NCBI RefSeq assembly: GCF_002749975.1
Contig: NZ_PEIG01000006.1
Coordinates: forward strand, 186,001-250,000
DNA from: Gloeocapsopsis sp. IPPAS B-1203
Lineage (GTDB): Bacteria > Cyanobacteriota > Cyanobacteriia > Cyanobacteriales > Chroococcidiopsidaceae
DNA length: 64,000 nucleotides
Reading direction: 5' to 3'
Position 1 is the stretch's first letter. Every line of letters begins with the position of its first letter. Below, piece after piece: positions 7,790 through 50,052 of this stretch. The notes under the pieces were generated by a model. The model saw nothing but the letters and a program-made list of their open reading frames with translations. It was not told where the DNA came from and made no database searches. The position numbers and the translations under genes were made by a program.

Positions 7790-8230
7790 ATGAAATCAGA
7801 AGCCGTTCATGTATTTGTTTACGGAACACTGAAGCCTGGAGAGATCAATTATCAACGGTATTGTGCAGATAAGGTTTTGACAGTGAAACGGGCGATCGCA
7901 TTTGGGAGGCTTTATCACCTTCCTGTCGGTTATCCTGCTATGACTCTTGGCGGCGATTGCGCGGAGCGCAGCGCCAAAGGCGATCGCGTTGAAGGCTTTG
8001 TCCTTTCGTTCCCTAATGTAGAAGTTTTAGATTATCTAGATTTACTAGAGGATTATCATCCTAGACGACCTATTGAGGAGAATGAGTACTATCGCCAGCA
8101 AATAGACACTTATAATTTAGACTTAACTTCTCTTAGTTCTGCTTGGGTTTACTTGATGACACCGAAACAAGTTAATACATTTGGTGGTCGGCGACTACCA
8201 AATGGTTGGTGGAGTAGTTGTTTACCATAA
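7790..8230 (+). CDS. Gamma-glutamylcyclotransferase-like (AIG2/GGCT fold) protein
   Basis: The N-terminal VFVYGTLKPGEINYQRY is the hallmark of the GGCT/AIG2 fold, and the later SAWVYLM and the acidic DLLEDYHP region follow the family. Such enzymes cyclise gamma-glutamyl compounds to 5-oxoproline; the exact substrate of the bacterial forms is usually unknown. The ATG at 7790 is preferred over a GTG at 7772. An extra segment, DCAERSAKGD, interrupts the usual run from YPAMTLG to GDRVEGF. It is encoded by the 35-bp repeat at 7953-7987, and removing nine residues would restore an ordinary family sequence. The catalytic Glu is probably in the DLLEDYH region. Its neighbours give no pathway clue. Confidence 0.8.
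   Translation: MKSEAVHVFVYGTLKPGEINYQRYCADKVLTVKRAIAFGRLYHLPVGYPAMTLGGDCAERSAKGDRVEGFVLSFPNVEVLDYLDLLEDYHPRRPIEENEYYRQQIDTYNLDLTSLSSAWVYLMTPKQVNTFGGRRLPNGWWSSCLP
7953..7987. repeat. 35-bp HIP1-flanked dispersed repeat inside a gene, copy 1
   Basis: The element begins GCGATTGC, ends GCGATCGC and has 19 bp between. It matches the copy at 49574-49608 at 30 of 35 positions by direct comparison. It is read in frame as DCAERSAKGDR in the GGCT-like protein. Because both ends are HIP1-like octamers, insertion with duplication of one octamer would add 27 bp, exactly nine codons. Confidence 0.8.
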
Positions 8231-36596: not shown

Positions 36597-36851
36597 ATGG
36601 ATGCATTTGCTCCTGTTCCTCCCGAATGGACTAATAAGGCAATTCACGCTTATGAGTTTTGTTGTCCTACTTGTCGTGCTTCGAGTCGAGAAGCGGAAAA
36701 TGTTTGGCTTAATCGGCGATCGCCTGTGATGACAGATAATTATCGCCGCAAGTGGCAAGAATTTTATCAGTGTCGTTGCGGTTGTGTGTGGTGGGCTTGG
36801 AGTAGCGATCGCCCGCCTTCGGAGTTCTCTTCATCGGAACTGTCAACGTAA
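36597..36851 (+). CDS. Small conserved zinc-ribbon-like protein
   Basis: This 84-residue protein contains two Cys clusters, FCCPTCRASS (Cys22, 23, 26) and QCRCGCVWWAW (Cys59, 61, 63), spaced as in a treble-clef or zinc ribbon. I recall small cyanobacterial proteins of this pattern but no named family. The C-terminal tail is Ser/Pro-rich and looks disordered. ATG at 36597 lies after an AT-rich stretch. It converges with the porin gene, and the strong hairpin between them could serve both. Confidence 0.65.
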   Translation: MDAFAPVPPEWTNKAIHAYEFCCPTCRASSREAENVWLNRRSPVMTDNYRRKWQEFYQCRCGCVWWAWSSDRPPSEFSSSELST

Positions 36852-49188: not shown

Positions 49189-50052
49189 ATGACTACTACA
49201 GCGAAAGAAGCTACAGATAAAATTTCTGGTGTTTCGGAAACTTTAATGATTACGTTGTATGCGCGGTATATAGAATCGCAGCGCCAGGATGCAATTCTTC
49301 AGGATAATAAAGCAGCAGAAATTGTTGAGAAGATTGATTATGATTTTTCAAAGTATGCTCAAGGATGGGCATCGCAACTTGGATGTGTGATTCGTGCAGA
49401 AGTTTACGATCACCTAGTTTCACAATTTATTCAAAAGCATCCTCAAGCAACTATTATTAATTTGGGTGCAGGGCTTTGTACGCGGTTTTTTCGTGTTGAT
49501 AATGGAAAAATAACTTGGTATGAGGTAGATTTTCCTGAAGTAATTGACTTGAAACGTAAGTTGATAGAGGAAAGCGATTGCGCTACGCGCAGCGCCGGAG
49601 GCGATCGCTATCGTTTTATTGCTAGTTCTATTTTAGAAGCTACTTGGATTGAGGAGATTCAGCGCGTAGCACCAGTATTAATTATTATGGAAGGGGTATC
49701 AATGTATCTTACAGAAATAGAGATGAAAACTCTATTTCAAAACATTACTCGCGACCTTGCACCAGTCACAATTCTTATGGATGTTATTGCTAGCAAAAGG
49801 GCAAAAAATACTCAGAAGCATGATACTGTTTCTAAAACTAATGCAAAGTTTAAGTGGGGACTAGATAACTCCAAAGAATTAGAAAATTGGCAACAAGAAC
49901 TTACAGTGACGGATGAAGTTTACTATTTAACTCGCTTTGCAAATTATCCACATCGCTTACCTTGGTGGGGTAGATATTTGCGGTTCATTCTTGTTGCGGT
50001 GTTTAAAAACTTTGGGCGAGTAATTCAAGTGCAAATTACTCAATCAGCTTAA
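49189..50052 (+). CDS. Class I SAM-dependent methyltransferase (TcmP/LCMT-like)
   Basis: This is a 287-residue methyltransferase of the leucine carboxyl methyltransferase/TcmP (PPM) group. Motif I is TIINLGAGLCTRFFRVDNGK, followed by ITWYEVDFPEVIDLKRKL and the later LIIMEGVSMYLTEIEMKTLF, all typical. Its substrate is unknown; relatives methylate polyketides or protein C-termini. Between RKLIEES and YRFIASS the protein carries DCATRSAGGDR, encoded by the 35-bp dispersed repeat at 49574-49608. The insertion lies in a loop between strands and keeps the frame. It follows hemB on the same strand by 66 bp. Confidence 0.82.
   Translation: MTTTAKEATDKISGVSETLMITLYARYIESQRQDAILQDNKAAEIVEKIDYDFSKYAQGWASQLGCVIRAEVYDHLVSQFIQKHPQATIINLGAGLCTRFFRVDNGKITWYEVDFPEVIDLKRKLIEESDCATRSAGGDRYRFIASSILEATWIEEIQRVAPVLIIMEGVSMYLTEIEMKTLFQNITRDLAPVTILMDVIASKRAKNTQKHDTVSKTNAKFKWGLDNSKELENWQQELTVTDEVYYLTRFANYPHRLPWWGRYLRFILVAVFKNFGRVIQVQITQSA
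49574..49608. repeat. 35-bp HIP1-flanked dispersed repeat inside a gene, copy 2
   Basis: GCGATTGC, then 19 bp, then GCGATCGC: the same architecture as the copy at 7953-7987, with five differences in 35 bases. It is read in the same frame, giving DCATRSAGGDR in the methyltransferase. The host gene is otherwise unrelated to the first one. Confidence 0.8.

Follow-up and report, generated by a model that had tools for sequence, protein, structure and literature searches.

The window considered here (the whole stretch of DNA analysed, 64,000 nucleotides from the genome of Gloeocapsopsis sp. IPPAS B-1203, hereafter G000) includes a gene for a gamma-glutamylcyclotransferase/AIG2-like (GGACT) protein, which starts with an ATG at 7790, has a stop codon ending at 8230 and matches Pfam GGACT (PF06094, E 3.6e-20). 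Lying in frame within this gene is a 35-bp repeat bounded by HIP1-like octamers, GCGATTGC-GCGGAGCGCAGCGCCAAAG-GCGATCGC, at 7953-7987, just as a first-pass annotation had described it, with sequence and coordinates exact; its further observation, that the same element occurs in frame in another gene of the window, also holds, at 49574-49608 within the ORF at 49189-50052. The two copies are read in one phase, as GDCAERSAKGDR in the GGACT gene and as SDCATRSAGGDR in the second gene, which is of LCM type.

7790..8230, + strand: host gene, gamma-glutamylcyclotransferase/AIG2-like (GGACT), 146 aa including nine extra residues
7892..7899, no strand assigned: unoccupied HIP1 octamer GCGATCGC inside the GGACT gene, from the sequence
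7953..7987, + strand: filled site of 35 bp, the 27-nt element between two HIP1 parts; exact pattern match
7956..7982, + strand: the 27 nt gained, from empty sites in G001 (L042) and G002; shown as if HIP1 were broken after nt 3, although any position within HIP1 nt 1-5 would fit (limit set by site L029)
7958..7970, + strand: hairpin 1, TGCGC-GGA-GCGCA, with a variable 3-nt loop; compensatory changes in 4 of 5 pairs
7972..7982, + strand: hairpin 2, CGCC-AAA-GGCG, the weaker of the two, with 2 of 4 pairs showing compensatory changes and 87.7% of cells paired
49189..50052, + strand: ORF carrying the second copy; LCM-type methyltransferase by its Pfam match (LCM)
49574..49608, + strand: the other perfect copy, read in the phase of the first (SDCATRSAGGDR); pattern match, site L022

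Searched with GCGATTGC-N19-GCGATCGC at up to two mismatches, the window gives seven matches at four places, against 0.02 expected from 100 dinucleotide shuffles. Two of these places (7953-7987 and 49574-49608) match perfectly; those at 36778 and 60621 are two-mismatch matches without the element core.

Copy number and distribution

Written inside HIP1 as GCG-ATTGCGCNNNGCGCAGCRCCRRAGGCG-ATCGC, the element produced 31 matches in a consensus search of G000 at up to three mismatches, and none in the reversed control. The pattern GCGATYGC-N19-GCGATCGC gave 46 rows in the same genome (reversed-pattern control, 0), a count in which places with GCGATCGC at both ends appear on both strands and several interiors are unrelated. 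The element is dispersed in the genome and often lies in genes, in frame. When the spacing in GCGATTGC-N6..36-GCGATCGC was scanned in G000 and G002, counts peaked at N19, with rarer relatives at N14, N16, N20 and N22, and a looser core search, which underlies part of the locus set, returned 96 matches against three in its reversed-pattern control.

At no more than one mismatch, the element was matched in 11 of 60 genomes, its own among them, with no match for the reversed pattern, and phylum-wide in 12 of 386 genomes (completeness at least 90), which fall in three families of one order (f1, f33 and f13). The spacing scan yielded a single row, unlike the element, in one f33 genome (G078) and eight rows in another (G281), including four 27-bp forms and one 24-bp form. 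Matches at E up to 1 were found in 25 plasmid records, mostly from Nostocales-like genera (including Nostoc, Anabaena, Trichormus, Scytonema and Tolypothrix), but also from Stanieria and Allocoleopsis (82.9% identity, E 0.3).

The locus set began as 118 loci, reduced to 100 by removal of 11 without a core match at up to three mismatches and seven repeats of the same copy, and then to 94 by setting aside L101, L105, L106, L116, L126 and L131 (truncated, nested or chance). The alignment, of 73 distinct sequences, does not include the five copies among the 94 that have the TYTTCTC form.

Several related arrangements were observed along the way. A 24-bp sibling near GCGATTGCGCNNNGCGCACGCTACGCGATCGC (L239-L242), likewise inside HIP1, has full-length matches on plasmids of Oscillatoria, Nostoc, Fischerella and Calothrix, the weaker of them at E 0.02-0.7. 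At L105 (G000:C19:15155), an apparently nested repeat consists of HIP1, GCAGCGTCTCGTAGAGAAGCCC and then the right half of the 27-bp element, and repeats bounded by HIP1 but differing in their interiors cluster locally at G000:C1:712015-715820 and G002:C1:3050686-3054759. On Trichormus and Scytonema plasmids typed as conjugative, the element sits in a hypothetical gene of similar length (L149 and L151, 1501-1535), perhaps at the same site; the host gene on the Trichormus plasmid adjoins a gene of the TrbI/VirB10 family.

Empty sites in related genomes

Orthologous sites were surveyed by querying 23 filled sites (18 from G000, five from G001) against six genomes, giving 124 rows. Sixty rows from 20 sites were compared, leaving aside G000 self matches, likely paralogues, partial matches and some weaker orthologues; three queried sites (L003, L012 and L097) had no compared stretch, and at L014 and L018 the sole relative compared was the sister genome. 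In 41 of the 60 stretches the middle is 8 bp long where the query has 35 bp. These octamers read GCGATCGC in 24 cases, GCGATTGC in five, GCAATCGC in three and ACGATCGC in two, the other seven occurring once each; five of the 41 (AGAATCGC, AGCATCGC, GAGATCGC, GAGATTAC and GAACTTGC) are further from HIP1. In nine more the middle measures 32-36 bp, filled or almost so; the remaining ten have middles of 0-10 bp, several resembling alignment offsets; several 5-bp or 10-bp middles that seem to be such offsets of HIP1 were excluded from the HIP1 count. A perfect single HIP1 is present in at least one relative at 14 of the 20 compared sites. The second copy in the window, at 49574-49608, is empty in G001, G002 and G014.

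Because filled sites mostly begin with GCGATTGC and empty sites mostly read GCGATCGC, the T of the left octamer is taken to be the element's, and at most sites compared this sixth base does belong to it. The duplication of the octamer envisaged by the first-pass annotation is to that extent inexact. Excision scars were considered as the origin of the five empty stretches reading GCGATTGC and set aside, such scars being indistinguishable from ordinary transitions.

The position of the break is narrowed by a single informative site, L029, which is filled in G000 as ACG-27 nt-ATCGC and empty in G004 and G014, where it reads ACGATCGC and is flanked by 60 bp on each side that are identical in both. 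The contrast between the empty ACGATCGC and the filled ACG...GCGATCGC places the break between HIP1 nt 1 and nt 5. These comparisons show a precise insertion inside the HIP1 octamer, somewhere in nt 1-5 and consistent with GCG^ATCGC, and show at least one copy to be recent. Near L029, an identical filled site, its near flanks identical as well, was seen in G000 (L038) and on a 201,822-bp contig of G014 (L143).

The GGACT gene

At the GGACT site, where the window has GGCG-GCGATTGC-N19-GCGATCGC-GTT, the sister genome has a single octamer (GGCA-GCGATTGC-GTT; G001, probably the strain of L042, which comes from Gloeocapsopsis crepidinum LEGE 06123 and is the closest named relative of this gene), as does G002 (GGTA-GCGATCGC-GTC). 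These two closest relatives uphold the proposal that an insertion at one HIP1-like site added 27 bp net, or nine codons, and supply the empty HIP1-like sites that it predicted; in the more distant G014 and G004 the site has degenerate octamers only (AGAATCGC and AGCATCGC). Homologs sharing the nine residues, which the first-pass annotation had named as counter-evidence, are absent: the residues occur in none of the 24 aligned homologs (24 of 30 stretches, without the window copy, L042, which equals L053, and L064, L068, L070 and L071). Judged from these orthologues, the 27 bp in the GGACT gene are an insertion.

An AlphaFold2 model of the protein built from 11 sequences (mean pLDDT 86.9) sets the inserted residues between two strands (49-52 and 66-74); residues 56-59 and 61-63 have pLDDT below 50. 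YtfP (1xhs) was the only solved relative found by sequence at E 0.001. In this model, the insert extends a turn, predicted at low confidence and probably disordered, that links the two strands; its effect is probably that of a near-neutral surface extension.

Insertions in genes

Coding calls rested on the codon usage of the flanking sequence, scored after training on 28 long ORFs of the window, a heuristic by which real genes are missed (it scored the GGACT gene as non-coding). With orthologous copies merged by hand into 17 groups (L036, L113 and L122 were left unmerged), 76 unique sites were obtained, of which 33 were called coding, 15 were classed as 'edge' and 28 were not called coding. 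For comparison, unfilled HIP1 octamers were called coding in 46 of 72 cases in the window and in 150 of 321 cases in the loci. Insertions in genes are thus nearly as frequent as unfilled HIP1 of the same loci, and rarer than HIP1 of the window. A Pfam family match was obtained for 17 of the 20 host ORFs scanned; galactokinase, SfsA and an FGGY kinase are examples of recognisable genes with filled/empty pairs.

The element lies in sense orientation at 27 of the 33 unique coding sites, with counts for target phases 0/1/2 of 11/3/13 in sense and 1/5/0 in antisense orientation (17/6/17 and 2/5/1 when edge sites are added). Unfilled HIP1 octamers in genes are distributed over the same phases as 21/12/13 in the window and 73/26/51 in the loci. 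Orientation depends on target phase (permutation p 0.001, in a test chosen after the pattern was seen). Since the preferred orientation flips in phase 1, we read this pattern as probable selection on the inserted peptide, as if only some peptides survive, rather than as insertion bias. Among the six possible readings, RLRGAQRQRRS, AIAFGAALRAI(A) and DRLWRCAPRNR are rare.

Five or six of the six frames are open in 77 of the 94 copies, compared with about 18% of random 27-mers from the window placed in HIP1. This openness is mainly a by-product of the GC-rich composition: shuffling the mononucleotides of the 27-mer also leaves five or six frames open in 82% of cases. The first-pass annotation had attributed frame-keeping to HIP1 geometry; this attribution does not survive, as 27 bp is the element's own length, and sibling inserts in HIP1 measure 22, 24, 28 or 30 bp. 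None of the five 22-bp or 28-bp inserts examined interrupts a called coding frame, although one (L237) adjoins such a frame; these inserts represent four sites, as L243 and L247 are the same site.

Fold and same-site variation

Over the 73 distinct 35-mers, the structure GCGAT[TGCGC NNN GCGCA]G[CGCC RRA GGCG]ATCGC has 93.4% of cells paired, with six pairs changed on both sides (2.3 in shuffles; 1 of 500 reached this value) and 15 doubly changed cells (3.1 in shuffles; 0 of 500). Two slide controls equal or slightly exceed individual values: a shift of -3 also gives six pairs changed on both sides (10 cells), but only 34% of cells paired, and a shift of +3 has a covariation score of 0.097, against 0.092 for the fold itself, with 52% of cells paired. 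Most of the covariation signal comes from hairpin 1; in hairpin 2, one pair is disrupted in 18 of the 73 sequences and another in 14. Compensatory changes support the predicted two-hairpin fold. Folded singly, four of five forms prefer an outer 8-bp stem between the octamers, and the commonest form folds no better than its shuffles (z -0.64). A conserved HIP1-HIP1 stem of 8 bp was rejected, having no compensatory changes.

Among 18 same-site pairs (excluding the TYTTCTC and dependent pairs, which were only listed), the hairpin-1 loop shows 0.24 changes per base, compared with 0.04-0.11 elsewhere, and six of its 13 changes come from two exact loop inversions. These inversions, each at one site, affect element nt 11-13 (GAA to TTC in L112/L094; GGA to TCC in L115/L096). 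At two other sites shared by different species (L019/L118 and L031/L186), the central 7 bp are exchanged (NNNGCGC vs TYTTCTC) while the right half of the element is the same or nearly so, and at L107/L202/L203 the interior is remodelled, being 36 bp long in two species.

Discussion

We assign a probability of about 0.85 to the reading that the element is a 27-bp, HIP1-targeted small dispersed repeat (SDR) of the SDR5 kind, with movement and selection as follows. The element would move as a single-stranded RNA or DNA molecule with a two-hairpin fold, which a trans-acting enzyme would join into a nick or gap at HIP1. A length of nine codons and a sequence mostly free of stops in all six frames would make insertions in genes survivable; selection on the peptide would then keep mainly three of the six readings (GDCAERSAKGDR, AIARSAAPKAIA and RSPLALRSAQS). 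To our knowledge, no enzyme is known to move such 27-bp elements.

Two readings dispense with insertion altogether. The filled sites could be an ancestral 35-bp segment, deleted in relatives by recombination between its two octamers; such a deletion would leave GCGATTGC, as read in five empty stretches, yet GCAATCGC, the mirror transition, which it could not produce, occurs three times, and five against three is no clear excess. Moreover, the nine residues are missing from all 24 aligned GGACT homologs, 14 of 20 sites have a relative with a clean HIP1, outgroups are empty at most of the sites for which several relatives were compared, and filled sites in unrelated genes have one common sequence; we rejected ancestral loss, which we consider very improbable. 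Convergent drift around two neighbouring HIP1 octamers, with no mobility, might draw on the abundance of HIP1 in G000, where chance pairs do occur (the non-N19 spacings of the scan). It hardly deserves credence, as the N19 peak has one conserved core, the reversed-pattern controls gave 0 (3 vs 96 in the looser core search), the window shuffles gave 0.02, and empty sites differ by exactly 27 bp.

If insertion of an SDR is accepted, two routes might serve it, each conceivable but on the unlikely side. In peel-and-paste transposition by a HuH/Y1 enzyme (IS200/IS605- or RAYT-like), the hairpins would be the element's ends and GCGAT the cleavage site; the two hairpins, the lack of a clear target duplication, GCGAT at both ends and Y1 transposase matches in G000, G001, G002 and G014 are all compatible with this. 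Y1 matches are commonest, however, in three genomes without a near-consensus element (G008, 11; G005, 10; G009, 8), two incomplete genomes with element matches (G016 and G018) have no Y1 match, and no strand bias by chromosome half was visible by eye in G002 and G014, whose origins were unmapped. Alternatively, a structured RNA might be copied into HIP1 by a resident reverse transcriptase, which would suit both the compensatory changes that keep the hairpins and the sense orientation of 27 of 33 unique gene sites. Against this, RVT_1 has no match in element-rich G001 and G014 (the enzyme may have been lost later), and the sense excess is gone in phase 1 (three sense, five antisense), for which reason peptide-level selection explains that excess better. 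Across 19 family genomes, the element shows no correlation with the number of Y1 transposase matches, in a weak test, or with that of reverse-transcriptase matches, and we therefore hold the RNA-mediated and HuH-type routes to be equally probable.

An insert might also stay a hot spot after landing and rewrite its nine residues in place: loop inversion and central 7-bp exchange would each change codons while the frame is kept. We regard such rewriting as improbable; were it true, HIP1-targeted SDRs would act in cyanobacterial proteins as a standing source of peptide diversity.

At 27 bp, such elements rank among the smallest mobile DNAs proposed. The kind of element is already known, and what is added here is the comparison of in-gene insertions with their empty sites; filled/empty pairs in recognisable genes offer a direct test set for target site, fold and peptide selection.

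Comparison with known systems

SDR5 was reportedly described in Nostoc punctiforme and relatives by Elhai et al. in 2008 (Genome Res 18:1484), who are said to have defined a size class of 21-27 nt for mobile SDRs with paired structure and compensatory changes, to have proposed an RNA intermediate and to have found SDR5 confined to one cyanobacterial subgroup. Our literature search found no account of in-frame HIP1 inserts, a weak negative given that the full text of this 2008 work lay outside it. The present element resembles SDR5 in inserting inside HIP1 (the break being resolved here to nt 1-5, from one informative site, L029), in its 27-bp length, dispersal (31 matches in G000) and recent mobility (the identical flanks of L029), and in a paired structure with compensatory changes, a likeness drawn independently of the published drawing. 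It is most likely SDR5 or a close variant, an identity that rests on behaviour and not on the SDR5 consensus, and so would belong to a known class found here in new hosts. SDR5 is reported to insert precisely inside HIP1, between nt 3 and 4 (PMC4390886); the mechanism, which the first-pass annotation had not seen stated for HIP1, is thus already in print, and is not new. This study differs from the SDR5 work in using Gloeocapsopsis-like genomes, orthologous empty sites and coding-phase counts. Less documented, within the literature searched, are the covariation-backed two-hairpin fold and the phase-dependent orientation in genes.

Rickettsia palindromic elements (RPE), described as mobile palindromic repeats that have become in-frame parts of conserved genes (PMC2229807, PMC10969869), share with the present element the in-frame occurrence of a mobile palindromic repeat in genes. 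RPE, however, are 105-150 bp long with their own ORF, whereas the element here adds 27 bp net, has a single octamer as its target and occurs in several reading frames. REP/REPIN sequences with RAYT are short hairpin repeats thought to spread in trans (PMC3116915); REP are extragenic, and large REP families bear a GTAG or CGTC tag (PMC3733652). The element described here, by contrast, is often genic, with 33 of 76 unique sites called coding and a further 15 classed as edge.
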